Source: a virus
Length of the DNA: 20,556 nucleotides
IMG/VR virus record: IMGVR_UViG_3300039412_000986
Span: 1 to 20,556 of that record
Reading direction: 5' to 3' (one strand)
Positions 2,584 through 17,925 of the stretch are shown here, piece by piece. The position numbers were made by a program, and so were the translations under genes. Within the stretch, counting starts at the first letter, position 1. Every line of letters starts with the position of its first letter. The notes under the pieces were generated by a model. The model saw only the letters and a list, made by a program, of their open reading frames with translations, did not search any database and was not told where the DNA came from.

Positions 2584-3065
2584 ACCCGGTAGCAGTCGTT
2601 GGTCTTTCCCCCTGGGAGATTCTTGGTCTCCATCGGGGCGCGGCCCCCGAGGAGATTCGGGGGGCGATGCGCCTTCTTGCCAAGGTCATCCACCCCGACG
2701 TCCTCCCACGGGGGAAGGCCCTTTTCCAGGTGGTCCAGGCAGCGGCTGCCGCCTGTGCCAATGGGGGCAGGTGGCCGCCCGACGCCCTGGACAAGTTTGA
2801 TGGGTTTGAACGCAAGACGCCTCAGCCCGCCCAGCCGACCAATGGCAAGCACCCATGGCAGTCATCCTGGCGATCGACTAAAAAGGGGAATTTCGCGCGA
2901 AGCGTGGGCCCCCAAACCTGGATCAACGTCTACTTCGCCAAGGACGGATCCGGGTGGAGGTTTCTCACTCCCGATGGGAAGGGTGGGACCTATTTCGACA
3001 ACGAGACATTCCCTACCGCCCTGGAAGCTCAGGAAGCGGCCGATGCCAAATGGGGAGGATTCTGA
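2574..3065 (+). CDS. DnaJ-like J-domain protein
   Basis: From the ATG at 2574 the product is 163 residues. Residues 11-60 form a short J-domain: SPWEILGLHRGA, helix EEIRGAMRLLAKVI, then the diagnostic HPD at 40-42. The HPD loop stimulates DnaK/Hsp70 ATPase, and lambda-type phages need the DnaK system to activate the origin complex. The C-terminal half (about 100-163) has a separate compact region (TWINVYFAKDGSGWRFLTPDGK) of unknown role. GTG 2460 and ATG 2547 are alternative starts that add a poorly conserved-looking N-terminus. Its stop overlaps the initiator start (TGATG at 3063-3067), so both are probably made together, which suggests a replication role. Confidence 0.75.
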   Translation: MAVNPVAVVGLSPWEILGLHRGAAPEEIRGAMRLLAKVIHPDVLPRGKALFQVVQAAAAACANGGRWPPDALDKFDGFERKTPQPAQPTNGKHPWQSSWRSTKKGNFARSVGPQTWINVYFAKDGSGWRFLTPDGKGGTYFDNETFPTALEAQEAADAKWGGF

Positions 3066-4012
3066 TGGCACGTATCAGAACGGTTAAGCCGGAATTCTGG
3101 GGGCACCCTATCCTCGCCCGATTATCTGACTGCACCCGGCTCATGGCACTGGCCCTGCTCAACATGGCCGATGATGAAGGGTATTTTCTGGCCGATCCCG
3201 CCCTGGTCAGAAATTTCGCCCGACCCTTCGATGAGGACTCCCGTAATACTACGGTAGCGATCCGGGAGCTTTCCAACGTGGGGTGGATTGAGGTCCGTTC
3301 CCACCCCTCCCATGGCCTCATCGCATGGGTGGTGAACTTCGCCAAGCATCAAGTGGTGAACCACCCAAGTCCCAGTAAACTCAAGACATACTTTTCCGGT
3401 AGCGTTCCGGTAATGCTCCCGGAAGGTTCCGGTAACGTTACTACCGGGAACAGGGAACAGGGAACAGGGATCAGGGAGCAGGGATCAGGGAGCAGGGATC
3501 AGGGAGTTCAAGCTCCTTCGGAGCTTCCTCCGAGCTCGCAAGGCTCACTCGGAGGCCCTCCCGGGAAGAAGGGAGTGGACAAGCCTGGGAAGCTGGACGA
3601 CTCCAAGATCCTGGTCTCGGTAGAATGCGTCGGGACTGGCCCTCATCTCTGGCCCTTGTCCCAGGCCAGGATGGACGAGTGGGTGACCGCCTTCCCCGGC
3701 ATCGACGTTCCGGCCAAGGTTCGAGCAGCCATCGTCTGGCTTCGGTCCAACCCTAAGAAACGGAAAACCTTCAACGGAATGCCCAATTTCTTCGCCTCCT
3801 GGCTCATCCGGGAGCAGAATCGCAGCCGTCCCCCTGCACAAGGAGCCTCCAATGGAACCCCATCCCATCGATCTTCCGACCTCCAGAGTTCTGCCGAACT
3901 TGCCCGCGAGCACGAAGCTCGGGTTGCCGCCACCTCCCCCTCCGGAATTGACCCTCTCGCTGGATTCATGGGTGCTGGCCCGGTTGTTGGAGATCGGGCT
4001 GGGGGAGGGTGA
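3065..4012 (+). CDS. Phage replication initiator (replisome organizer-like)
   Basis: The 315-residue product starts MARIRTVKPEFWGHP, the usual opening of phage replication-initiator/replisome-organizer proteins. A winged-helix-like N-terminal domain follows to about residue 110 (RLMALALLNMADDEGYF, a segment ending GWIEV). The ATG at 3065 overlaps the preceding stop and has GGGGAGG upstream. Longer in-frame starts from 2954 lie inside the J-domain gene. The middle (about 110-170) is low complexity because it is encoded by repeated DNA. The C-terminal part (about 190-265) carries a second folded region. In lambda O and similar initiators the protein binds repeats inside its own gene and recruits the helicase complex. 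The gene order initiator-loader-helicase supports this. The last 161 bp overlap the loader gene. Confidence 0.8.
   Translation: MARIRTVKPEFWGHPILARLSDCTRLMALALLNMADDEGYFLADPALVRNFARPFDEDSRNTTVAIRELSNVGWIEVRSHPSHGLIAWVVNFAKHQVVNHPSPSKLKTYFSGSVPVMLPEGSGNVTTGNREQGTGIREQGSGSRDQGVQAPSELPPSSQGSLGGPPGKKGVDKPGKLDDSKILVSVECVGTGPHLWPLSQARMDEWVTAFPGIDVPAKVRAAIVWLRSNPKKRKTFNGMPNFFASWLIREQNRSRPPAQGASNGTPSHRSSDLQSSAELAREHEARVAATSPSGIDPLAGFMGAGPVVGDRAGGG
3394..3448 (+). repeat. 11-bp phased repeats (TTCCGGTA-type) in the initiator gene
   Basis: Five consecutive 11-bp units are visible: TTCCGGTAGCG (3394), TTCCGGTAATG (3405), the degenerate CTCCCGGAAGG (3416), TTCCGGTAACG (3427) and TTACTACCGGG (3438). The last is partly an inverted version. 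Spacing is about one helical turn and not a multiple of three, so the periodicity belongs to DNA and not to the protein. Iteron-like initiator binding sites are the natural reading. Confidence 0.65.
3447..3502 (+). repeat. Eight 7-bp tandem repeats (GGAACAG / GGATCAG / GGAGCAG)
   Basis: Eight head-to-tail heptamers: three GGAACAG, then alternating GGATCAG and GGAGCAG. Seven is not a multiple of three, so the encoded peptide repeats every seven residues (REQG, REQG, RDQG). Strongly purine-biased on the plus strand. The block sits directly after the 11-bp repeats. Confidence 0.85.
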
Positions 4013-4562
4013 GGCGGAAGCCAGCCTGGAAATGATTCCCCAGGGCATCCGCCGGGCGCTCCCACCCATTGTGATCGAGCGGATGGCTGCCGGGCAGCTT
4101 CCGGCCACTGGCTTTGGGTTGGGGGGAGAGATCGGGTGGGGGAAGACCTTCACCCTGGCGGCCCTAATTCGGGCAAGCCTCCTGAAAGTCGCGGAGTTCC
4201 GGCGGGAAACTGTGGACCACGTCAGCACCGTTGCCTGGGCTTGTTGGCCGGTGGACAAAGCCGTTCGTGGCACCCTTGACCAGTCCCGGGAGCGACTGGA
4301 GCATCTGGCCAATGCCCCTCTGTTGGTGCTTGACGACCTGGGGCGGGAGCGGCTGAAGGGGTCCTACGGGGATGATTGGTCCCGTTCCTGCCTGGACGTG
4401 ATCGTCACCCAGCGGTGCCGCCGCCGGCTGCCCATCCTCTGGACCACCAACTGTTCGTTCCAGGAGCTATTGGGGATTTACGGTCCTGGGCTGGTCTCCC
4501 GGCTCTCAGAGATCAATCCTTTCCTCCGGCTGGAAGGTCTCCGCAACCTGCGGAGGGTGTGA
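3852..4562 (+). CDS. DnaC-type helicase loader ATPase
   Basis: This 236-residue AAA+ protein has Walker A GEIGWGKT (92-99), Walker B LLVLDDLG (157-164), a sensor-like WTTN near 198 and a C-terminal arginine-bearing segment (GLVSRLSEINPFLRL). This is the layout of DnaC/IstB-type loaders, which open and place DnaB on DNA. The start at 3852 has a strong AAGGAG upstream (3839-3844). It lies inside the initiator gene, giving a long 161-bp overlap. The N-terminal stretch in the overlap is proline-rich (GLPPPPPPELT) and may be a linker; helicase- or initiator-binding functions usually lie there. The stop overlaps the helicase start (TGATG at 4560-4564). Confidence 0.85.
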   Translation: MEPHPIDLPTSRVLPNLPASTKLGLPPPPPPELTLSLDSWVLARLLEIGLGEGEAEASLEMIPQGIRRALPPIVIERMAAGQLPATGFGLGGEIGWGKTFTLAALIRASLLKVAEFRRETVDHVSTVAWACWPVDKAVRGTLDQSRERLEHLANAPLLVLDDLGRERLKGSYGDDWSRSCLDVIVTQRCRRRLPILWTTNCSFQELLGIYGPGLVSRLSEINPFLRLEGLRNLRRV

Positions 4563-5890
4563 TGGCCGAGCTCCCGGTCGATCTTGACGCCGAACGAACC
4601 CTGCTTGGATCCGTCTGGTCCGGCCTCGCCATCCGCGATCCGGAGAGTCGGACCATCCTTTGGGACCTGCCCCCGGTCGCATTCTTCGTCACCGACCACC
4701 GGGCGCTCTGGGAGGGAATGCGGGCCTTGGCCAAGGAGTCCCAGGAGATCCCCTCCGAGCAGGCTCTGGCCTGGAAGGTCAGCAAGGGGACCTCAACTCC
4801 CCAAACCCTCTCCACGATCCTCGAAATCCTACGCCATGGTGCGGATGCACTACCCTCTCCCCTTTCGAGCCGTGTGCGCGAACTGTGGCGCAGGAGGGTG
4901 GCAATTTCGGCCTGCCGCACGGTCGAGGATGCCGCCGAAGACTTGTCCATGCCCTTCCCGGAGGTGGCCGCCAGCGCCAACGCGGCCTTCCTGGAGGTCG
5001 CCAAGGGGGACACGGCCGCCAACCGGTCCTGGTGGAGCTCGGAGATGGTGGAGCGGCTCCAGGAGAACCGCCCCTTCCGGGAGGGGGCGGCCGGGGCTCA
5101 GTTGCTCTGGTTCGGGATTGGTTGGCTGGATGACATGCTGGTCTCCGGGCCCGGGAACATCACCGTGCTGGGCGGCCGGCCCGGGTGCGCCAAGTCCGGG
5201 CTCGGGCTTCAGGCCAGGAACGTCAGCGCCTCCAGGGGGATCGTGAGCGGGTTCTATTCCCTCGAGCTCTCGAAGGAGGAGGTGGAGGCCCGGGACGCCG
5301 CTTGGTGGCTTTCGGATCCAGCCCACGGGCTGGTCTATGGCTACAAGGCCCTGCTGCGGGAGAAATACGACGCCTCCGCGGCCATGGCCACCCTCATGGA
5401 CCGGGCACCCTTCCTGCAAAACGCCCGGGGCTGGACCCATCCGGCCAACGTGGAAGTGGGGGCCTTGATCGCCGCGATCTCCGAGGACGTTCACGCCTAC
5501 GGCCTCAAACTGGCGGTAATTGATTATTTCCAATACATCCGGCCGGTCCGGCAGAAAGGGGACACCCTGGCCAGCGCCTACGCAGCGAACTCTGGGGCGC
5601 TCAAGCAAGCCGCCCAGGACCTGGGGATCCACATCCTGCTCCTGTCCCAGCTGAACATCCGGGACGACGGGGCCCGCCCAGGCATGGGCGATCTGAAGGA
5701 GACCGGGCAGTTGGAGCAGGACGCCGCGGCTGTGCCGATGCTCTACAAGGACAAGGACGGCAATCTTTGCATGACCGTCCCGAAGAACCGGGACGGGAAA
5801 ACCGAGATTTCCAAGCAGTTGGACGTGGTCTGGCCCTGCCTCCGGATCACCGCCCCCTACCGGGAGACCGAGCAGGCTGCGTTCTTTTAA
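4562..5890 (+). CDS. dnaB: DnaB-type replicative helicase
   Basis: The 442-residue product starts MAELPVDLDAERTLLGSV, a standard DnaB N-terminal opening, and has the N-terminal helical domain to about 110. The RecA-like motor has Walker A GGRPGCAKS (204-212), Walker B LAVIDYFQYI (about 320), LLLSQLN, and the family signature DLKETGQLEQDA. The P-loop is unusual: Ala210 replaces the usual glycine before Lys211 and Ser212 replaces Thr (typical form GRPGxGKT). The ATG at 4562 overlaps the loader stop. An open frame upstream to 4376 lies within the loader gene and is rejected. It should form a hexamer that unwinds the phage replication fork. Confidence 0.9.
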   Translation: MAELPVDLDAERTLLGSVWSGLAIRDPESRTILWDLPPVAFFVTDHRALWEGMRALAKESQEIPSEQALAWKVSKGTSTPQTLSTILEILRHGADALPSPLSSRVRELWRRRVAISACRTVEDAAEDLSMPFPEVAASANAAFLEVAKGDTAANRSWWSSEMVERLQENRPFREGAAGAQLLWFGIGWLDDMLVSGPGNITVLGGRPGCAKSGLGLQARNVSASRGIVSGFYSLELSKEEVEARDAAWWLSDPAHGLVYGYKALLREKYDASAAMATLMDRAPFLQNARGWTHPANVEVGALIAAISEDVHAYGLKLAVIDYFQYIRPVRQKGDTLASAYAANSGALKQAAQDLGIHILLLSQLNIRDDGARPGMGDLKETGQLEQDAAAVPMLYKDKDGNLCMTVPKNRDGKTEISKQLDVVWPCLRITAPYRETEQAAFF

Positions 5891-7520: not shown

Positions 7521-8851
7521 TCCCCCCGCCCCTCCCGGCGGATGACCTGAAGACCCTAATGGCGGTCGGCTCCCCCGGCAAGCTCCGCCTGTCCAAGCTG
7601 GTCCCGTGGGACGAGAACCCCCGCGACCACGATCCGGCCCAGGTGGAAATGCTGGCCGCCTCCATCCGGACCCACGGCATGGTCCGGCCCATCATGGTCC
7701 AGGCCAAGACCAACCGGATCGTCGCCGGGCACGGGACCCGGCTGGCCCTCATGCTCATCGCCGGGGGTGCCGACCCCGAGGTCCCGGTGGTGGTTTGCAA
7801 GCTCACGGACGCCCAAGCCCGGTCCTACGCCGTGGCCGACAACCGGCTCTCGGACCTCTCCACCTGGAACCCGGCCCTGCTCCGGGACTCCCTCACCGCC
7901 CTTAACGATGGGGCATTCGACTTCGCTTCCATCGGCTTCGACCAGTCCTCCTTGGCCGCCATCTTCAACACCGCCCCCCCCGAGTCCGGGATCCTGCCCG
8001 GCCGGGACCCTGACGATGCCCCACCCCTCCCCCCCGTCCCCCAGGCCCGGCTCGGGGACCTCTACCTCATCGGCCGCCACCGGCTGGTCTGTGGGGACTC
8101 CACCTCCAAGGATGACGTCTCTCTCCTCATGGCCGGGGTCAAGGCGGACTGCCTGCTGACCGATCCCCCCTACGGCGTGGCCTACAAATCGGATTCCAAG
8201 TCCCTCAAGGCCGGGGGCAAAGCCTCCATCAAGAACGACAACCTGGACCCCGAGGTCCTCCAGGACTTCCTGGCCCAAGCCTTCCACGCCGCGGCCTCCG
8301 CCCTCGCCCCCCACGCCGGGTGCTACATCTTCTACCCTTCCCGCTACCACCGGGAATTTGAGAACGCCCTGAACCTGTCCGGGTTCGAGGTCCGGGCCCA
8401 GATCATCTGGGCGAAGACCCAGGCCAGTTTCGGCTTTGCCCAATACAAGTGGAAACACGAACCCATCCTGTTCGCCGCCCGGCCTGACGCCATCCCCCTG
8501 ATCTTCGTCCCTGCCCATGAAGCCGCCTTCTACGCCTTCAAGGCCGGGCAGTCCGTCGCTTGGGAAGGGGACCGCTCCCAGACCACCGTCTGGACCTGCG
8601 GCCGGGACCACGGCTACGTCCACCCCACCCAGAAGCCGGTCGAACTCCTGGCCCGCGCCATCCGAAACAGCACCAAGCCGCGCGGCATTGTCCTCGACCT
8701 TTTCGGTGGAAGTGGTTCCACCCTCATGGCTTGCGAAGTCCACGGCCGGACCGCCTACCTCATGGAACTCGCCCCGGCCTTCGTGGACGTCATCGTGCTC
8801 CGCTGGGAGCAGGCCACCGGCAAGCAAGCTATCCTGGTGCGAGGGAAGTGA
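7499..8851 (+). CDS. ParB-like domain / DNA methyltransferase fusion
   Basis: This 450-residue protein has two parts. Residues about 25-130 match the ParB/Srx-like N-terminal domain found on phage methylases (LVPWDENPRDHD, SIRTHGMVRPIMVQ, IVAGHGTRLALM, VADNRLSDLS). The rest is an amino-methyltransferase with DPPY at 222-225 and the SAM-binding FGGSGS at 402-407. This motif order is that of the beta group. DPPY favours N6-adenine methylation, but N4-cytosine is not excluded. TARGET sequence unknown. Such enzymes commonly protect phage DNA from host restriction; no partner endonuclease is visible, so it is an orphan. The ATG at 7499 follows eight C residues, with only a weak ribosome site; coupling to the overlapping upstream gene is likely. 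Confidence 0.85.
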   Translation: MARPQALIPPPLPADDLKTLMAVGSPGKLRLSKLVPWDENPRDHDPAQVEMLAASIRTHGMVRPIMVQAKTNRIVAGHGTRLALMLIAGGADPEVPVVVCKLTDAQARSYAVADNRLSDLSTWNPALLRDSLTALNDGAFDFASIGFDQSSLAAIFNTAPPESGILPGRDPDDAPPLPPVPQARLGDLYLIGRHRLVCGDSTSKDDVSLLMAGVKADCLLTDPPYGVAYKSDSKSLKAGGKASIKNDNLDPEVLQDFLAQAFHAAASALAPHAGCYIFYPSRYHREFENALNLSGFEVRAQIIWAKTQASFGFAQYKWKHEPILFAARPDAIPLIFVPAHEAAFYAFKAGQSVAWEGDRSQTTVWTCGRDHGYVHPTQKPVELLARAIRNSTKPRGIVLDLFGGSGSTLMACEVHGRTAYLMELAPAFVDVIVLRWEQATGKQAILVRGK

Positions 8852-8854
8852 TCC

Positions 8855-9568
8855 ATGCCGCGCAAGCAAGCTGCACCTCTGCCCCCAGCTTCGGTTCCGA
8901 AGCAGAAGAAGGGGAGACCGCCTATTTGTCAGTGGGAGGTCCTTGAAAAGCTGTATATATACGGTGAGAAACCAGAAGGGGCGGCGGAAACCAGTATGCC
9001 GACCTTCTCATCCCTGGCCGTTCTCGCTACGCGGTTTAATGTCCCTCTAACAGCAGTATCCAAATACGCCCAGCGACATGACTGGGCCGACCTCCGGGCC
9101 AAGGCGCGCACCGGTATCGTGGATGCGACCCATGCCGCCATGGTCCGGCAGGCCACCGAGAACTACCTCCCCCTCCGAACAAGTGCTGTGGCCCTGGTGG
9201 GGCAAGCCTTCACAGAGGCCCAGGCCGCCCTCAAGGGCAGCGACGTCACCAAGGCGGAGACCACCACTCGGGTCATGGACACGGTGGACCGCGGCCTCAA
9301 GAATCTGGATCGGGCCTTGGGCATCGCCTCCCCGCCGGCAATCGCCCTGCAACAAAACAACCTTTTCGTGCAACAAACCCGCCCTGGGGAGGAACCACCG
9401 CCCCCTTCCCAGTCCCAGACTCTGATCGATCCGTCCCTCAGCGGGAGCATCTGGAGCCTGATCCTTCGGGCCCGGGAGTCGGCCAACGCCTCCAGCGACG
9501 GTTTCATCCGCAGCCTGGAGGAGGAGTCCACCCTGCCCCCTCACCTCTCCTCCGTGCCCCGTGGCTGA
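8855..9568 (+). CDS. Terminase small subunit (putative)
   Basis: The 237-residue product starts MPRKQAAPLPPASVPKQKKG, a basic arm. A likely helix-turn-helix follows near 50-75 (FSSLAVLATRFNVPLTAVSK-YAQRHDW), typical of small terminases that recognise packaging sites. A long helical stretch suited to oligomerisation comes next (about 90-155). The C-terminal part is Gln/Pro-rich, then helical. It sits directly before the large terminase and overlaps it by eight bases. GAGGGAAG precedes the ATG at 8855. Family assignment rests on helix-turn-helix pattern and position. Confidence 0.7.
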   Translation: MPRKQAAPLPPASVPKQKKGRPPICQWEVLEKLYIYGEKPEGAAETSMPTFSSLAVLATRFNVPLTAVSKYAQRHDWADLRAKARTGIVDATHAAMVRQATENYLPLRTSAVALVGQAFTEAQAALKGSDVTKAETTTRVMDTVDRGLKNLDRALGIASPPAIALQQNNLFVQQTRPGEEPPPPSQSQTLIDPSLSGSIWSLILRARESANASSDGFIRSLEEESTLPPHLSSVPRG

Positions 9569-11612
9569 CAAGTCCGATCTTCTCTTGGCCATGGAGGCCA
9601 AGCAGCTATCCAAGCTGAGCAAGCTGCCGCCGGACCCGGTGAAGGCCCAGGAGGCGATCGCCACCCTGGCGGACTACTTCTCCGCAGCTTGGCTGAAGAT
9701 TTCCCTGAAGGAAGCCGGGGGCGGGCTGGCCCCGTTCGTCTACAACCCGATCCAGATGGACCACCTCGTCGGGCTCCGGAGGCTCTACCGCCGCCGGCCG
9801 GAGATCGACCTCTTCCGGGGGATCCGGGACCTGATCCTGAAGCCGCGCCGGCTCGGATTCTCCACCTACATCGCCAGCCTCTACTTCCTGGATGGGCTGC
9901 TAAACCCTGGGACCAACACGGTTGTGATGGCCCACACGGAGGATGTGGTCAAGGAGCTATTCGATATTTATCGAATCTTCTACGAGACCTTGCCCAAGGA
10001 TGTCCGGGAGCGCTGTCCCACCCGGCGCATGTCCACCTCGGAAATGGAGATCAATTTCTACGACGAGAACGGTTCCCTCGATCTGACCACCCGGCCGCCC
10101 TCCACCTTCTCGGTCGGCACCGCCGGGGGTAAGGACAAGCGCGGGCTGACCCCGCACAACATCCACCTGTCTGAGGCGGCCTTCTACGAGAAGTGGGCGG
10201 AGGTGAACAAGTCCCTGGTCCAGGCCCTGGACGTCCGGGGGAACGCCTTCCTGGAGTCCACCGCGCGCGGTTTCAACCATTACAAGGATCTGGTGGACGC
10301 GGCGATCGAAGGCAAGTCCATGTATCGGTTGGTTTTCTTCCCATGGTTCGCCTTCCCTGAATACCGCATGCCGGCGGATCCGGGGCAGGCGGCGGAGATC
10401 TCCCGGACCCTGTCCTCGGAGGAGCGGGTCCTGGTGGAGCGTGGCGTGGGCATGGACCAATTGGCCTGGAGGCGGTGGAAGCTGACAGGCATGGACCTCA
10501 CCGACTTCCACCAGGAGTTCCCGAGCTCCGTCCTGGAAGCCTTTGTTTCCACCGGCCGGCCCGCCTTCAACCTGGAAATCGTCGTCCAGAACTGGGAGAA
10601 GGCCCGCAAGGCGGCCGGGAACTGGGCCAAGCGGGACGAATGCACCACCATCTTTGCCGCCCCCGACCCGGCCGGGACCTACGTGCTCTCTGCGGACCCG
10701 GCGGAGGGGCTGGACCGGGGCGAGGGTGACAGCCGGAACGAGGTGGGCGGGCTGGACTATTCCTCTGCATCGGTCCGGGACGCCGCCACCCTCCGGGTCA
10801 TGGCGGTGATCCATGGGCGGCTTGGGGAAGCCGACTTCGCCGGCCGGATCGGCAACCTCGGGTACGAATACAACACCGCCTTGATCGTGGTGGAGCGGAA
10901 TAACCACGGTGGAACCGTGCTTTACGCTCTCGAACAGGCCATGTATCCGAACCTCTACCGGCACCAGGAGTATGACGCCGCCGGCCAGCCCTTCCACAAG
11001 TTGGGGTTCCCGATGAACGTCCAGACCCGGCCGCTGGTGGTGGACTGCATCCGGGAAGTGGTCAAGCGCGGGGCTCACCCTGACCCCGATCCAAACTTCT
11101 GGAAGGAGGCCAGCTTCTTCGTTTCCAACGTCCTCGGCAAGTATGAAGCTCAGTCCGGCCGGCACGATGACCGGGTCATGGACCGGGCGATCGGGACTTA
11201 CGTCTGCACCCTCGGGGCGAAAGCCTGGGGCGCGGACGGGCTGCTCCGCCATGCCGACGCCGCTGGCCTGCCGCTGCCTCCAGATGCTGTAGGAAGCCCC
11301 CAGCCGCGTCAAGCGGTGCCCCCGCCCCCAGAACCCGTCCAAAGGGCTTCCACCGCCCTGGAGCTTGCCCCAGGCTTCGCACACCCCCTCTTCCAGAACC
11401 TCGCGGCACTGCGGGAGCAGGAGAACGGGCCCGAGACCTCCCGATGTGCGAATTGCCAATATTGTCCCGTCAAGGTCGGGCCCACCGTCTGCGGGGCCCA
11501 TGGGTTCAAGATCGATGCCTCTATGTCGGGCTGTGAAACCTGGGAGCCTCGCCTCTCGGATACAATGGATCAGCCGAAGGTCACCACGGACATCTGGGGG
11601 AGCGGGTCATGA
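9561..11612 (+). CDS. Terminase large subunit, with cysteine-rich tail
   Basis: The 683-residue product opens at GTG 9561 (MADKSDLLLAMEAKQLSKL). The motor domain has a P-loop-like LKPRRLGFST (93-102) and a Walker-B-like NIHLSEAAF (from 200) in which Ser204 occupies the usual Asp before Glu205. The RNase-H-like nuclease has candidate metal ligands Asp379 (SADPAEG), Glu445 (VVERNNHG) and Asp536/537 (HDDR). It cuts concatemers and pumps DNA into the prohead. Beyond the nuclease is a Pro-rich linker, then an unusual segment with SRCANCQYCPVKVGPTVCG and a later SGCETWEP, probably zinc-binding. The stop overlaps the portal ATG (ATGA at 11609). Confidence 0.88.
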   Translation: MADKSDLLLAMEAKQLSKLSKLPPDPVKAQEAIATLADYFSAAWLKISLKEAGGGLAPFVYNPIQMDHLVGLRRLYRRRPEIDLFRGIRDLILKPRRLGFSTYIASLYFLDGLLNPGTNTVVMAHTEDVVKELFDIYRIFYETLPKDVRERCPTRRMSTSEMEINFYDENGSLDLTTRPPSTFSVGTAGGKDKRGLTPHNIHLSEAAFYEKWAEVNKSLVQALDVRGNAFLESTARGFNHYKDLVDAAIEGKSMYRLVFFPWFAFPEYRMPADPGQAAEISRTLSSEERVLVERGVGMDQLAWRRWKLTGMDLTDFHQEFPSSVLEAFVSTGRPAFNLEIVVQNWEKARKAAGNWAKRDECTTIFAAPDPAGTYVLSADPAEGLDRGEGDSRNEVGGLDYSSASVRDAATLRVMAVIHGRLGEADFAGRIGNLGYEYNTALIVVERNNHGGTVLYALEQAMYPNLYRHQEYDAAGQPFHKLGFPMNVQTRPLVVDCIREVVKRGAHPDPDPNFWKEASFFVSNVLGKYEAQSGRHDDRVMDRAIGTYVCTLGAKAWGADGLLRHADAAGLPLPPDAVGSPQPRQAVPPPPEPVQRASTALELAPGFAHPLFQNLAALREQENGPETSRCANCQYCPVKVGPTVCGAHGFKIDASMSGCETWEPRLSDTMDQPKVTTDIWGSGS

Positions 11613-13540
11613 ACGAGCCAGGAAACGGTGGATCTGCTGAATTTCGCCCAATCTTCTCCAAATCGGACGATATGGGGGCACAGGAGGCCGTCGTGGCCTA
11701 CGACCCGGGCGCTCCGGCCGGGGAGGTCGTGGACGCGACGGACAAACTCTCCCGGATGTATTCCGGGGCCATGGGGGCGGTGGACCCAGTGCTCTACGGG
11801 GAAATGGCCGGCTATGCCACGGTCAACCGGATCGAGCACCGGGCGGAGGACATCATCGCCAAGGCCATCAGTTTCCGGGACGATCCGGAAGGCTGGCGGA
11901 AGGACCCGGACCGAATCACGCCGGAGGGGAAGGCCCAGACCACCAGCTGGGGCTCTGACTTCGGCCGCGGCTACTTCAAATGGCTGCCCAAGCGGGGCGT
12001 CCAGCTGCCCATCCTCCGGGCTTTCGCCCGCCGCCTGGAGGTGGCCCAGGCGATCATCCGGACCCGGAAGCGGCAGGTTGACCGGTTCAGCCGCCGGGCC
12101 CAAACCGCGGACGATATCGGCTGGAGGTTGGCGATGGACGACGAGGAGGCCACCGCCGGCACGGAAATGAAGGCCAAGATCAAATGGATGTCCCGCCTGC
12201 TGGAGTGTGGTGGCCGGGAATTCAACGCGATCAAGCGGCGGGAGCTCAAGCGTCAAGGCATGACCCAATTCCTCCGCCACTTGATCGAGGACGGGCTGGT
12301 CCTGGATCAGGCCGCGGTGGAGCTCATCGGCCTGGACGGGGCGGAAGGGCTGGACTCCTGGTTCGTCCGTCCCAGCGACACCTTCGCCCTGGCCTCCCCC
12401 CACTACGCCCAGACTTTGGACGATGGCCGCCCCATCTATGCTTTCCAAATCCTGAACGGGAAGGCAGAGATCCCCTTCGGCTTCGATGAACTGGCCCTGT
12501 TCACCCGGAACGCCTCCACCTGGGCGGAGGAGAACGGCTATGGCTACTCGGAATTCGAGCAGTCCTTGGAAACCTTGAACAACGTCCTCCAGGCGCTCAC
12601 CTTCACCAAACAGGGCCTGTCCGAGAATTCGGTTCCGCGCGGGATCCTACTGGCCTACGGGAATTTCGACGTCAAGACCCAGAACCAATTCCAGGCCGCT
12701 TGGCAGGCCAAGGTCAGGGGCATCCAGAATTCCTTCGGCACCCCGATTCTTTTCTCCCGTGGGCAGCAGGGTGCGGTGCAGTATCTCCAGACTGGCCAAC
12801 CTTTTGATGAGATGGCATTTAGCAAATGGATCAGCCTGAACATGGTCATCATGGGGGCCATCTTCGGGGTGGCGGCGGAGGAGGTCGGCTTCGAGTCCTT
12901 CAGCGCCTCCGGGAAGAGCAGCCTGTCTGGGGATGACACGGGCGAAAAGCTGGCCGCGGCCAAGGACAAAGGGCTCAACCCCTTGCTCAAGGACGTTGCC
13001 TCGTTCATGAACGACGAGATCGTGGACCGCTGCGTCCCCGAGCTCCACCTGGAATTCTGCGGCTTGGACGTGGAGCAGACCAAGGAGCGGTGGCAGGAGA
13101 AGATGAAGCATTCCACGATTAACGAGGTCCGGGCACAGTTCGATATGCCGCCCCATCCTATCGACTGGTTCGGGGACCTGCCGGCCGACCCGGGCGAAAT
13201 GACCGCCCACTTCCAGCGGGTCCAGCAGGCCCAGACGCTCGGTGAGGTTCGGTTCGACATGCATCTTCCGGAGTATCCCAGCCCCATGCTCGACGCCGCG
13301 CCCCTCAATCCCAGCTTCGGAGCCCTCTACCAGCAAGTCCTCATGGTCCCGCCGGAGGGATCAGAGGCGGGGGAAGGTGGCTCTGGCGACGCGTCAGAGC
13401 CAGGGGAGGGCGGTCCGGAAGGTGCTTCTGAGCCGGGGCAGCCTTCCATCCTGGCCCAGAAGCTCCAGGATCTCGGGGAAGGGCGCACCCCCTACCAACC
13501 CATGGAATTCGAGAAACAGCCGGCTGAAGCCCAGGAGTGA
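11609..13540 (+). CDS. Portal protein
   Basis: The 643-residue product follows the large terminase with an ATGA overlap and precedes a MuF-type head protein, the usual place of a portal gene. The sequence has a variable N-terminus and a long mixed alpha/beta core with LPILRAFARRLEVAQAIIRT, RPSDTFALASPHYAQTLDDG, PIYAFQILNGK and LETLNNVLQALTFTKQGLSE. A stem-like hydrophobic stretch follows (ISLNMVIMGAIFGVAAEEVG). Near 585-612 is a Gly/Glu/Ser/Pro-rich acidic low-complexity segment, then a short helical tail. Portals form the dodecameric gate for DNA entry and the tail attachment point. Assigned by context, size and overall pattern. Confidence 0.8.
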   Translation: MNEPGNGGSAEFRPIFSKSDDMGAQEAVVAYDPGAPAGEVVDATDKLSRMYSGAMGAVDPVLYGEMAGYATVNRIEHRAEDIIAKAISFRDDPEGWRKDPDRITPEGKAQTTSWGSDFGRGYFKWLPKRGVQLPILRAFARRLEVAQAIIRTRKRQVDRFSRRAQTADDIGWRLAMDDEEATAGTEMKAKIKWMSRLLECGGREFNAIKRRELKRQGMTQFLRHLIEDGLVLDQAAVELIGLDGAEGLDSWFVRPSDTFALASPHYAQTLDDGRPIYAFQILNGKAEIPFGFDELALFTRNASTWAEENGYGYSEFEQSLETLNNVLQALTFTKQGLSENSVPRGILLAYGNFDVKTQNQFQAAWQAKVRGIQNSFGTPILFSRGQQGAVQYLQTGQPFDEMAFSKWISLNMVIMGAIFGVAAEEVGFESFSASGKSSLSGDDTGEKLAAAKDKGLNPLLKDVASFMNDEIVDRCVPELHLEFCGLDVEQTKERWQEKMKHSTINEVRAQFDMPPHPIDWFGDLPADPGEMTAHFQRVQQAQTLGEVRFDMHLPEYPSPMLDAAPLNPSFGALYQQVLMVPPEGSEAGEGGSGDASEPGEGGPEGASEPGQPSILAQKLQDLGEGRTPYQPMEFEKQPAEAQE

Positions 13541-13542
13541 CC

Positions 13543-14577
13543 ATGAAGGGCACCCGGAAGCCGGCCCAGGCCCTGCATGGCCACGAGGTTGAACGAGCCA
13601 TGTGGGGGCCCAATCCGGACCCGCTCCGGGGGTTCGTGGAGGATGGGCTCTGGTTCCTCGGGGCCGGCTTTCTCAATCGGTTCGCCTCCGCGGTGTTGGG
13701 TCAGGCCACCACGGTTGTGGCCAAGGCGGAGGGGCCCGCCAAACCCCCGGGCTGGGGCGAGATCATGCACCTGTTCGAAGCCGGCGGGCCGCCCGGGGCG
13801 CAGATGGCCAGCTGGGGCAGCCTGATCGACGGCTTCACCCAGGCCATCCTGCCGACCAACACCGCCCTCCAGCAGGCCCAGGTTTGGGCTCTCCGGACCG
13901 CCCTGTTAACCCAGATCCAGGAGCGGGTGAAGGCGATCACCACCCCCTGGGCCTGGGACCGCTACTTCCAGATCATGCCGCCGGCCCAGAAGCACATCGC
14001 CGCCTGGACGGCCCAGCGGGGCGCGCAGTTCGTGACCAAGATGACCAGCGCCGCTCGCCAGAAGACCCTGGATGTCCTGGTGGACGCGGAGCTCGCACAC
14101 GAGGGGCCCCGCTACATCCAGACCATGCTCATGGAGCGGCTTGGTGAGTTAAACCGTGACTGGAGAAGGATTGCGATCACCGAGACGGCCATGGCCATCT
14201 CCAACGGACAGCTTGCCTCGGTGGCGGACGAGGGGGGCTGGGAGGCGGTCTGGATCGGCGCGCCCACCGCCTGCCCGTTCTGCCGGAAGATGTTCGGCCG
14301 GGTGTTCGAAGTGGTGGCCAAGCCCAAGATCGGCATGGATCCTGAGAAGTTCATCTGGCCCGGGAAGCACAACGTCGGGCGCTCCGCCCACCTCTACCGG
14401 AAGGATGGCACCAAGCGGACTGCGGCCGAGCTCTGGTGGCCCTGTATCCCGGCCCACCCAAATTGTGCCTGTTTATGGTCACTTCGCAGGAAAATCACGA
14501 ATTTGGCAGGGAAACGCGCAGAAGCCATTCTTGCCGGTCTTCGCAAGGAAAGATACGAGCGTTATTCAAAGGTATAG
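13543..14577 (+). CDS. MuF/SPP1 gp7-type head morphogenesis protein with replaced 3' end
   Basis: The 344-residue product begins at ATG 13543, behind CAGGAG that overlaps the portal stop; GTG 13537 is an alternative. The first two-thirds are helical (portal-binding in this family). The C-terminal MuF-like domain runs from about 210: ITETAMAISNGQ, WIGAPTACPFCRKMFGR and the family's hallmark PAHPNCAC. Such proteins are minor head components made with the portal. From about 14460 to the stop, codons turn AT-rich (TTA, TCA, AAA, GAA, GTA) unlike the rest. The last 21 residues have a near twin at 15154-15216. The terminal 16 bp overlap the convergent HNH gene. The 3' end therefore appears to have been swapped by the inserted element. 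Confidence 0.8.
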   Translation: MKGTRKPAQALHGHEVERAMWGPNPDPLRGFVEDGLWFLGAGFLNRFASAVLGQATTVVAKAEGPAKPPGWGEIMHLFEAGGPPGAQMASWGSLIDGFTQAILPTNTALQQAQVWALRTALLTQIQERVKAITTPWAWDRYFQIMPPAQKHIAAWTAQRGAQFVTKMTSAARQKTLDVLVDAELAHEGPRYIQTMLMERLGELNRDWRRIAITETAMAISNGQLASVADEGGWEAVWIGAPTACPFCRKMFGRVFEVVAKPKIGMDPEKFIWPGKHNVGRSAHLYRKDGTKRTAAELWWPCIPAHPNCACLWSLRRKITNLAGKRAEAILAGLRKERYERYSKV

Positions 14578-15140
14578 TTCAGCTTTGCGAACTCCCCGAA
14601 TAATTCTATTGCCGCTTTATCATAAGCCATGGCGGCATCTTCTACTTCCGGGAAATGTCCAAGATGCCTCTGATGCTGATCTTTCTTGATATAGGCGCGC
14701 CATCGCATCCGCCTCTTATCCCACGAAACGCCTTTAAATCCGCTGGTATTATGGGGAGGTTTGACCATGTTCGCCCCGTTCTGTGTTGGTGTGGCTGGGC
14801 GGATGTTATCACGGCAATTGTTCAATTTGTTATGGTCCTTGTGATCGGTTCTTATCCCTTTCTGAAGCCCAAGAATAAATCGATGCAGACGAACGGCAGG
14901 GAGTGGCCATGAACTTGCTACATACCCATCCCTGTCCACACACCACCTTCGGTTCATTACTTCAGCCGTATAATCCGAAGTCCATAAAATGGTAGATCGC
15001 CAATCCTGAAGATGCATGATGGTGAGACCATTCGGTAAATGCTCGACCTTGTTCGCCCCAATACATTCGAATCCGCCACCCGGCTTACCTCTTCTTGGTT
15101 TTCGCATGGGCCACCTCTAATCAAGGATGCGCTTCTTCGC
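14460..15140. mobile_element. HNH homing-endonuclease insertion carrying a recoded target-gene end
   Basis: Inside the GC-rich head region lies a block of clearly lower GC: 28 of 60 bases at 14581-14640, against 42 of 60 at 13561-13620. It contains a foreign 3' end for the head gene and a minus-strand HNH-AP2 endonuclease with its own ribosome site. The original head-gene end resumes near 15139-15154. Boundaries are estimated from codon use and from the restart of homology, not from target-site duplications, which were not seen. The likely entry point is at or next to the codons for the conserved NCAC motif. Confidence 0.65.
14562..15107 (-). CDS. HNH homing endonuclease with AP2 DNA-binding domain
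   Basis: The 181-residue minus-strand protein starts at 15107 behind AGAGGTGG. Residues about 73-114 form an HNH_3-type nuclease core: RLHRFILGLQKG, then TDHKDHNKLNN (87-97) and RDNIRPATPTQN. Residues about 122-178 match an AP2/ERF-like three-strand-plus-helix domain: SGFKGVSWDKRRMRWRAYI, HLGHFPEVEDAAMAYDKAAI, KLNYTF. HNH-AP2 proteins are free-standing homing endonucleases of phages; they cut a recipient genome so that repair copies the element. The gene is convergent with, and overlaps by 16 bp, the head gene. Its AT-richer composition marks it as acquired. Confidence 0.9.
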   Translation of the reverse strand: MRKPRRGKPGGGFECIGANKVEHLPNGLTIMHLQDWRSTILWTSDYTAEVMNRRWCVDRDGYVASSWPLPAVRLHRFILGLQKGIRTDHKDHNKLNNCRDNIRPATPTQNGANMVKPPHNTSGFKGVSWDKRRMRWRAYIKKDQHQRHLGHFPEVEDAAMAYDKAAIELFGEFAKLNYTFE

Positions 15141-15225
15141 ATGTGTGTCAATCAAGCGGGCGGAGGCGATTCTGGCCGGGCTCAGGAAGGATCGCTACGA
15201 GCGATATGCCAAGGTGCCCGCTTGA
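15139..15225 (+). pseudogene. Displaced original 3' end of the head morphogenesis gene
   Basis: The frame reads ACVSIKRAEAILAGLRKD then RYERYAKVPA and stops at TGA 15223-15225. Over 15154-15216 it matches the present C-terminus of the head protein (14512-14574) at 19 of 21 residues, but only 46 of 63 bases, with most differences at third codon positions. Codons here are GC-rich like the rest of the phage (CGG, GCG, CTG, GGG). It is therefore best read as the native end, cut off by the insertion. An ATG at 15127 is in frame but has no clear ribosome site, so translation is unlikely. Confidence 0.75.
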
Positions 15226-15257
15226 GGCGATAATGGGGGGACCTCAAAGGAGCCTCC

Positions 15258-16460
15258 ATGGCCACCGTCGCGTCCCTCCTTGCCACACTTCAGGCTGACC
15301 TTGCCACCGCCCAGGCCGATCTGACCGCCCTGGCCGCGGCCATCGCCGCCGGCACCCCCACCGGGCCGACGGGCCCGACTGCGCCTTCGGGTCCAACCGG
15401 GCCCACCGCTCCCACCGCCCCCTCCGGCCCGACCGGTGCCAGCGGCCCCAGCATCCCCCCGGGGAACATCATCCTGGTGCCAGCCTCCTTGGCCGGCACC
15501 GACTGCGGGGCCCAGATCCAGGCGCTGCTCCAGCAGGCTGGTTCCAAGGCCACCGCCGCCAGTCCCTGGACCGTGGAGGTTCCAGCTGCGTCCAAGCCCT
15601 ACATGGTGAATCCCACTCTGCACGGGGAATACGGGCTGGAGATTCCCTCCCACGTCACCCTCCAGGTGGACGCCGGGGCGACCATCGGCACGGTCACCAC
15701 CCCGAGTTCCCTCCAGACCTATTACACGATTTATATCGCGGCTGGGGTGGTGGACGCCCATCTCCTGCTCCTGGGGACCCTGATCGGCGACAAGGCCACC
15801 AAGTCCAGCCCTTCGGAATGGGGCATGGGGTTTGGGGTCGATGCCTGCAATGGCTGTTCCCTGGATGGCACCGGCACGATCACCGGCTGCTATGGGGATG
15901 GCATCTACATCGGCCCGGGCGCTCCCGCCCAGACTTTCAAGATTGGGGCCATCGTCAGCACCGGCAACCGGCGGCAGGGCCTCACCATCGATTCGGTCAA
16001 TGGGCTGATGGTGGACGGGGCCGAATTTTCCCACACCTCCGGGACCTCCCCGGCCTGCGGGATCGATATCGAGCCGGACCAGACGACCCAGTCCGTGAAG
16101 AACGTCACCATCCAGAATTGCAACATCCACGACAACGCGGGCGGGGGCATCCAGTCCGGACCGGACGATTCCGGGCCCGGCTCGGTGGACACCCTGACCA
16201 TCCAGGGCAACACCCTTAACAGCAACGGCTCGCCCGGCGGCAAATACGGGATCTACGCGACTTTCGGTATTGAAAACCAGAATTCCTCGAACGTCACCAT
16301 CCAGAACAACACCGTGAACGGGACCCAAGGCCCGGCCGTGCAGGTCCGGAACCGCGGGACCAACATCAAAGTGCTCAACAACAAGGGGACCGGGAATAGC
16401 TCGGGTGTCTCCAACAGCATCGGCACCTCCTGCACATCCTCTGGCAACTCCTTCTCCTGA
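15258..16460 (+). CDS. Collagen-like and beta-helix tail fibre or spike protein
   Basis: The 400-residue product starts behind AAAGGAG. Residues 1-32 form an Ala/Leu-rich heptad-like helix (LLATLQADLATAQADLTAL), probably a trimeric coiled coil. Residues about 32-66 are collagen-like G-P-T / G-P-S triplets. The rest is a right-handed parallel beta-helix of the pectate-lyase type, with many short N/D/G-rich turns (VTIQNCNIHDNAGGG, LTIQGNTLNSNG, VTIQNNTVNG). These features are typical of phage adhesins and polysaccharide-degrading spikes. No catalytic residue can be assigned. No standard virion-anchoring head domain is visible at the N-terminus, so attachment may be through the coiled coil and collagen stalk. 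Confidence 0.8.
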   Translation: MATVASLLATLQADLATAQADLTALAAAIAAGTPTGPTGPTAPSGPTGPTAPTAPSGPTGASGPSIPPGNIILVPASLAGTDCGAQIQALLQQAGSKATAASPWTVEVPAASKPYMVNPTLHGEYGLEIPSHVTLQVDAGATIGTVTTPSSLQTYYTIYIAAGVVDAHLLLLGTLIGDKATKSSPSEWGMGFGVDACNGCSLDGTGTITGCYGDGIYIGPGAPAQTFKIGAIVSTGNRRQGLTIDSVNGLMVDGAEFSHTSGTSPACGIDIEPDQTTQSVKNVTIQNCNIHDNAGGGIQSGPDDSGPGSVDTLTIQGNTLNSNGSPGGKYGIYATFGIENQNSSNVTIQNNTVNGTQGPAVQVRNRGTNIKVLNNKGTGNSSGVSNSIGTSCTSSGNSFS

Positions 16461-16469
16461 AAGGTCCCC

Positions 16470-16691
16470 ATGTCCATCATCGGGTTGATCATCTGTCTCA
16501 TCATCATCGGCGTCCTGCTCTGGCTGGTGAACGCTTACATCCCCATGGCCCAGCCGATCAAGACGATCATCAACGTGCTGGTGATCCTCCTGGTGGTCCT
16601 GTGGCTCTGCAACCTCTTCGGAGTGTTTGACATGGGCGGCGGCTACCGGATCGGAACCGGGCACACCGGGCACACGCACACGTTGCCTTGA
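16470..16691 (+). CDS. Small two-span membrane protein (Thivi_2564-like)
   Basis: The 73-residue product has two hydrophobic spans: MSIIGLIICLIIIGVLLWLV (1-20) and IINVLVILLVVLWLCNLFGV (about 33-52). These are separated by NAYIPMAQPIK and followed by a Gly/His/Thr tail. The span-NxYIPM-span pattern resembles the small Thivi_2564-type membrane family seen in bacteria and phages, function unknown. AAAGG lies upstream and the start is nine bases after the fibre stop. A holin role is possible from size and topology, but no endolysin is recognised nearby to support it. Confidence 0.7.
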   Translation: MSIIGLIICLIIIGVLLWLVNAYIPMAQPIKTIINVLVILLVVLWLCNLFGVFDMGGGYRIGTGHTGHTHTLP

Positions 16692-16947: not shown

Positions 16948-17925
16948 ATGGTCACCCCGGTCTGCATCTCCCGCTGGTCCGGCCTCGGCGACGTCTGCAT
17001 GGCCCTGGCGGCGGCCCACGCCTACAAGGCCGTCAACGGTGGCTGGGTGGTGGTTTGCACCGATCCGAAATACCACCAGCTGGCCCGCGCCTGCCCCTTC
17101 GTGGATGGGGTGGTCAGCCTTCCCCCTCCGGGCATCCAGGAGGTCCAGCTGCATGCCGCCTTCCATGGCCTCAACCCTGGCCACGAGGTGGACAGTTTTT
17201 GTCGCGCGCTGGGCCTAGGGGAAGTCGAGCCGGAGCTCAAGACCCTGGAAATCCGGGTGCCCGTTTCGGCGCAGGCCAGGGTGGCCAGCATCCTGTCCGG
17301 CCACCCCCTCTGGCACCGGAGCATCCTGAACCACGTGGTGCTCCACCCTGGGTCCATCGACCCGAACCGGACTTGGCCGGAGGCGCACTGGGTCGAACTG
17401 GCCAACCTGCTGCTCTGGCGCGGGGACATCGTCTACCTGATCGGGGGCGAGCACGGCTGCTTCATGGTCGAGGATAAGCTGGATCCCCTGGCTCCCGTCC
17501 ACAACGTCCGGAACTTAATCGGGCTCTTGAACCCATTGGAAACAATCGAGGTATTGCGCCAGTCCTCCGCCCTGGTAAGCACGGACGGGGGGCCGATCCA
17601 GCTTGCGGGCGCGACCGAGACCCACATCTTCGGGATCTACTCCGTGGCCTCCGGGGCAATGCGCCTGCCCTACCGCACCGCGGGCCGGCAAACTGCCCTG
17701 GTGCCCACCTGTGAGATGTATCCCTGCTACCTCCACACGAACAACCCGACCATCTGGGAAACCCAGGTGCGCCGGCTGGAGTCCCACGGCACCCTGGGCC
17801 TGGGCCCGCTCTTGGCGCACTGGTGCCCGGCGGTGGAGGACCTGGAGGACTCCGCCCGCTATCCCTGCATGCGGGAACAAATCACCCCAGCCCAGGTCTG
17901 TTCGGCTATCCTGAATGTGCTCTGA
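16948..17925 (+). CDS. GT9-like (heptosyltransferase-type) glycosyltransferase
   Basis: The 325-residue protein has the two Rossmann halves of family 9 glycosyltransferases. The N-terminal SRWSGLGDVCMALAAAHAY resembles the usual GxGDxL...P opening. The C-terminal half begins VVLHPGSIDPNRTWPEAHW and includes the donor-binding STDGGPIQLAGATETHIFGI. GT9 enzymes (WaaC, WaaF, WaaQ) add ADP-heptose or similar sugars to the LPS inner core in the cytoplasm. Cysteine-rich segments near the end (PTCEMYPCYLHTN) are also seen in some GT9-like enzymes outside LPS loci. It starts five bases after the preceding gene. In a phage it may modify host surface sugars or a phage structural protein; the sequence does not say which. 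Confidence 0.75.
   Translation: MVTPVCISRWSGLGDVCMALAAAHAYKAVNGGWVVVCTDPKYHQLARACPFVDGVVSLPPPGIQEVQLHAAFHGLNPGHEVDSFCRALGLGEVEPELKTLEIRVPVSAQARVASILSGHPLWHRSILNHVVLHPGSIDPNRTWPEAHWVELANLLLWRGDIVYLIGGEHGCFMVEDKLDPLAPVHNVRNLIGLLNPLETIEVLRQSSALVSTDGGPIQLAGATETHIFGIYSVASGAMRLPYRTAGRQTALVPTCEMYPCYLHTNNPTIWETQVRRLESHGTLGLGPLLAHWCPAVEDLEDSARYPCMREQITPAQVCSAILNVL

Follow-up and report, generated by a model that had tools for sequence, protein, structure and literature searches.

A recoded head-gene end beside an HNH-AP2 endonuclease gene in a phage genome: a candidate case of homing with replacement of a gene end

Organization of the locus

The window, that is, the whole stretch of DNA analysed here, comprises the 20,556 bases of a virus record, and terminase, portal and head-morphogenesis genes follow one another in it in this order (Table 1). 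The head-morphogenesis gene is complete, with its own stop codon, ahead of a gene for an HNH-AP2 endonuclease, and the stop codon of the HNH gene, which is read from the other strand, lies inside the tail of the head gene, the two overlapping at 14562-14577. Beyond the nuclease gene a second version of the head-gene terminus is found, here called the stranded native end.

Table 1. Features of the locus and of two related records (window coordinates, except for L058)
Feature	Position	Strand	Remarks
Minor head / head-morphogenesis gene	13543..14577	+	Probable hybrid of native body and foreign tail; PHROG minor head / head morphogenesis, E 7e-5 to 9e-4; 3' of the terminase and portal genes
AT-rich recoded tail of the head gene	14458..14577	+	Probably came with the element; change point 14458, log-likelihood ratio 25.9; GC3 0.41 (gene body 0.895)
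Gene for an HNH-AP2 endonuclease of homing type (181 aa)	14562..15107	-	Convergent with the recoded tail, 16-base overlap; Pfam AP2, HNH_3 (sub-threshold), PHROG_99
Upstream region of the HNH gene	15108..15153	-	Minus-strand TTGACA at 15146-15151; the element's right border falls at about 15151-15153
Native 3' terminus of the head gene, stranded	15154..15225	+	21 matching codons, then Pro-Ala-stop; 19/21 aa and 46/63 nt identical to the recoded tail; GC3 0.81
Weak promoter-like site over the end of the stranded copy	15206..15234	+	ATGCCA, 17 bases, GATAAT; 1 found vs 0.7 expected by chance
Patch of 60 bases in which sibling record L004 has 18 substitutions	14302..14361	+	Only 2 other differences in the shared 7,951 bases
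L058: HNH-AP2 gene and DnaB-like helicase gene with replaced start	2635-3494 and 3491-5005		Old start stranded upstream

The AT-rich codons of the head gene begin abruptly and occupy its final 39 codons. The change point in codon usage has a 2-unit support interval of 14452-14461, and the same analysis, applied as a control to five further genes of the window and to five head genes that lack the insertion, never gave a log-likelihood ratio above 2.4. The GC3 of the HNH gene is 0.486. When the recoded tail KRAEAILAGLRKERYERYSKV (14512-14574) is compared with the stranded copy KRAEAILAGLRKDRYERYAKV (15154-15216), the 17 base differences fall on first, second and third codon positions in the proportion 3/0/14. 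The likeness is not due to chance (E = 1.2e-9, flank compared against flank), and the stranded copy is in frame and undecayed. The head-gene stretch at about 14458-14511 has no counterpart in it, which means that some 50 native bases are missing between the two joins. These results bear out the first-pass annotation, which had described an AT-richer end of the head gene, a convergent HNH-AP2 endonuclease and, at coordinates and with counts that proved correct, a reappearing C-terminus differing mostly at third positions. In spite of its composite build, the hybrid head gene is predicted still to encode a full-length head protein, and its AT-rich tail may reflect the codon usage of a donor rather than selection against cleavage. 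As a separate observation, the downstream beta-helix gene may owe a promoter to the retention of the stranded end, although such sites occur in about the number expected by chance.

As regards the nuclease, its profile matches are to PHROG_99 (7.5e-37) and to Pfam AP2 (2.9e-11, above cut-off); HNH_3 stays slightly under the cut-off (19.5 vs 24.8) and exceeds it in the corresponding nuclease of a related phage, L024. A profile made from the window and L024 nucleases also matches the structure 1u3e_M, an HNH homing endonuclease, and by sequence the window protein belongs to the phage HNH-AP2 nucleases. The TTGACA hexamer is found at a similar distance upstream of the L024 HNH gene too. HNH genes often lie inside introns, and an in-frame, undecayed terminus on the far side of one could be read as the exon of a group I or II intron (or as part of an intein-split gene) of which the recoded tail would be the other side. 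Nevertheless, the head gene ends at its own stop before the HNH gene is reached and the latter is on the opposite strand, which makes such an element very improbable; moreover, a search of 13400-15500 for Rfam intron families and group I RNA structure, run without a positive control, gave no match at E up to 1.

Sibling records and relatives without the insertion

The 800-base region containing the junctions is letter-for-letter identical in three other IMG/VR records (L002, L003 and L004), which have 7.8 to 10.9 kb of wider sequence in common with the window, at about 99.98% identity in two of the three. The abrupt change in composition is what an assembly chimera of two phages would also produce, but the identical junctions in these records, which come from named metagenome datasets, rule out an assembly error, and a similar arrangement exists in L024, leaving the chimera with a negligible probability.

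One sibling, L004, carries in addition a trace of exchange within the head gene. Of the 20 positions at which it differs from the window over 7,951 bases, 18 are packed into 60 bases located about 97 bases 5' of the recoded tail, a clustering with a probability of about 1e-32 under uniform scatter; the GC content of the patch is 0.483 in L004 and 0.567 in the window. This patch is likely to be a short gene-conversion footprint from another head-gene allele, left either by the homing event itself, through patchy heteroduplex repair, or by a later event. L004 also holds a 1.75-kb insertion (7951-9700) that is missing from the window (window position 16490) and adjoins TTGAT; it contains a gene for a 156-aa TnpA-like protein and a 522-aa ORF resembling TnpB, and from the appearance of its sequence it would be an element of the IS200/IS605 type.

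Phage genomes are mosaic, and a foreign patch well away from the HNH gene could be taken as a sign that generic recombination between related phages produced the whole locus, in which case two segments were exchanged and the HNH gene between them was simply carried along. We consider this improbable, since the foreign stretch consists of the nuclease and the abutting gene end and nothing more, a related nuclease occupies the same site in L024, and HNH-AP2 proteins are a homing-type family.

Seven related phages have a single GC-rich tail and no adjoining HNH gene, with head genes 67% (L005, L022) or about 50% (L023, L025, L026, L006, L007) identical to that of the window. The nuclease is thus patchily distributed at the head-gene site, being present in the window lineage and in L024 and missing from these seven other head-gene relatives. 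In L005 the head gene runs straight into a gene that, judged from its first residues, seems homologous to the window gene at 16948, so that the local gene order has been partly kept. The earlier claim that a homologous, recoded end arrived with the nuclease, as opposed to a recent duplication, is supported by the single GC-rich tails of the uninserted phages and by the occurrence in L024 of the same nuclease type behind a recoded tail; furthermore, an uninserted phage in which the GC-rich copy already follows an AT-rich tail was not seen among the relatives, the closest of which stands at 67%. The lower-GC donor phage supposed for the recoded segment was searched for and not found in the collections covered, which also held no uninserted allele closer than 67%. 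The DNA of the element had no match among isolate phages, and comparison of the head proteins with genome contigs gave one match only, weak and 50 residues long. In L238, a distant relative of the head gene is followed (4948-5100) by an AT-rich stretch (GC 0.39) of some 150 bases; there is no HNH gene in it, and an insertion that was later lost may have left this scar.

Further cases beside HNH genes

The head-gene site is also occupied in L024, whose head protein is 54% identical to that of the window and is placed on a branch apart from the window lineage. Its HNH-AP2 gene, 48% identical, is the closest relative of the window nuclease outside the window's own lineage, and is likewise convergent with the head gene, with a 20-base overlap. 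The last 88 codons of this head gene are AT-rich, and the change point, at position 4733, is the strongest of all (log-likelihood ratio 49.6). In both phages the switch lies at or near conserved Cys motifs, within PCIPAHPNC in the window and shortly after CAFC in L024, as would be expected for homologous joins at short conserved stretches. A stranded native end was not found in the right flank of L024, where the best scores did not exceed those of shuffled queries; stranding is therefore not obligatory.

A mirror-image case emerged when flank was compared against flank, first in 73 and later in 150 distinct HNH loci. In L058 (L057 is the same phage), the last bases of an HNH-AP2 gene 41% identical to that of the window overlap a replicative helicase gene (DnaB-like; PHROG_19, 1e-40) at its start and not at its end. 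The old helicase start lies on the 5' side of the nuclease gene, matching the present one at 32/42 aa and 93/126 nt, with 21 of the 33 differences at third positions, and is soon interrupted by a stop. In L058 as in the window, the 3' end of the nuclease gene adjoins the replaced terminus, and the old one is found past the 5' end of that gene. To judge from this layout and from the broken old start, the copy now joined to the helicase would be the newcomer. No uninserted allele covering the helicase start was found among helicase relatives. The L058 and L057 contigs also hold a second HNH-AP2-like gene (L094, L095).

Clear stranded gene termini were confined to two of the 150 distinct loci, namely the window and L058, and a layout of this rarity may arise incidentally in ordinary homing. 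Flank matches at L167, L040, L126 and L154 were rejected, as they look like neighbouring paralogous genes and not replaced ends. A survey of GC3 change points in 144 genes abutting HNH genes had its highest likelihood ratios in the window and L024; among the lowest p values there was only a mild excess of near-end over far-end changes (12 vs 6), which means that recoded ends are not general.

Proposed mechanism

A homing-type transfer from an AT-richer homologue very probably accounts for the locus. More specifically, we favour homing with replacement of a gene end, the element being composed of the HNH-AP2 gene and a recoded end of its target gene; this fuller reading is probable rather than firm. 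Its basis is the anatomy of the locus, the foreign codon usage, the empty relatives, the second phage and the mirror-image case at a gene start, and we infer both the cleavage of the native head gene and the direction of transfer.

The sequence of events was probably as follows. During a mixed infection, the nuclease of a phage with AT-richer codons would cleave the resident head gene within its 3' end, and repair would copy the donor allele, gene end and nuclease together. On the left, the join would be homologous, within the conserved PCIPAHPNCAC at about 14458, so that the last 39 codons became those of the donor; on the right, copying would break off near 15151, where it met the 21 final codons of the resident gene and left them stranded. 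Because about 50 native bases are missing between the joins, the cut or resected gap most likely lay there. The altered codons of the hybrid gene probably abolish the cleavage site, most third positions being different. Moreover, as the nuclease gene overlaps the recoded end, the two are not easily separated and would travel together.

In the main alternative, a free-standing HNH nuclease homed with homology on one side only. The tail would then be no more than a left flank that was co-converted, and illegitimate (microhomology) repair would have closed the locus on the right, accidentally leaving part of the native end, with no organised unit and no selection for immunity. Co-conversion followed by an illegitimate right junction would leave much the same sequence. 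Flank co-conversion is presented as general in T4 homing, and one-sided homology as leading to illegitimate repair and extensive resection, in the review PMC2988022; the unequal tracts of 39 and 88 codons are as co-conversion predicts, and L024 has no stranded end. Nevertheless, in the window, L024 and L058 alike it is the 3' end of the nuclease gene that overlaps the replaced terminus, and both stranded ends are on its 5' side, while pure accident would not favour one layout, an argument that is suggestive only, the cases being few. This alternative appears rather unlikely.

Under the end-replacement reading, the native end is predicted to be cut and the recoded end to remain uncut, and immunity of the recoded tail to cleavage is, from the extent of the recoding, somewhat favoured. 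That the stranded end acts as homology in later homing, as has been proposed for the WHO elements of yeasts, is a tentative suggestion by analogy. Broader still, and doubtful at present, is the view that phage HNH-AP2 elements form a recurrent class in which the mobile unit is a nuclease with a cleavage-resistant terminus, replacing the ends (window, L024) or starts (L058) of essential genes and leaving the stranded old terminus as homology for the next round, so as to constitute a natural cut-and-rescue drive. The end-replacement reading suggests how a selfish gene could occupy an essential phage gene at no cost while removing its own target. If it is true, some phage structural genes end in foreign sequence, with misleading gene trees as a consequence.

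Comparison with known systems

Among phages, the free-standing homing endonucleases SegF, SegG, MobA and MobE of T4-like phages are described, in the part of PMC2988022 considered here, as mobile with co-conversion of flanking genes and without an intron; HNH members nick DNA, and one-sided events can be closed by illegitimate repair, as described there for phage T4 introns. The window element is also a phage element and intron-free. By contrast, the T4-like endonucleases sit between genes and cut the neighbouring region, and no replaced gene end with a stranded old end is described in that part of the source. An earlier report of stranded gene ends beside phage homing nucleases was not found in a search of the open literature, which took in few subscription journals.

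The first-pass annotation had pointed to Allomyces atp6, and the comparison is apt. In the mobile ORF hybrids of fungal mitochondria (Allomyces atp6; Glomus atp6, atp9, cox2 and nad3), a foreign C-terminus and an endonuclease ORF are found in an essential gene, with the native C-terminus downstream (PMC3630166). The two Glomus atp6 ends have 91% protein and 63.5% DNA identity (PMC3630166), close to the 90% and 73% of the window. The window likewise has an in-phase foreign C-terminus, an adjoining nuclease ORF and a native C-terminus downstream, a likeness of working and not of membership, since the mitochondrial nucleases are of the LAGLIDADG or GIY-YIG type, whereas that of the window is HNH-AP2, encoded on the opposite strand, and in a phage.

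A closer precedent is offered by the WHO elements of the yeasts Torulaspora and Lachancea, in which a nuclease gene adjoins the essential gene FBA1 (eLife 2020 9:e55336, PMC7282813). At every integration the 3' end of FBA1 is replaced and the old 3' end persists as a fragment beyond the nuclease gene; moreover, resistant and sensitive alleles differ in their nucleotides, and allele-specific cleavage has been demonstrated (PMC7282813). In the window, too, a 3' end has been replaced by a divergent allele beside a nuclease gene, and the old 3' end lies beyond that gene; the likeness is one of sequence layout. The WHO nucleases are LAGLIDADG, intein-like proteins with a zinc finger acting in yeast nuclei, while the window has an HNH and AP2 protein in a phage, with convergent overlapping genes. 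With its HNH-AP2 nuclease and phage host, the window element is outside both the WHO and the mitochondrial-hybrid families, and, if the reading proposed here is true, end-replacing homing, so far described in yeast nuclei and in the mitochondria of fungi, also takes place in bacteriophages, with HNH nucleases, and includes the starts of genes.
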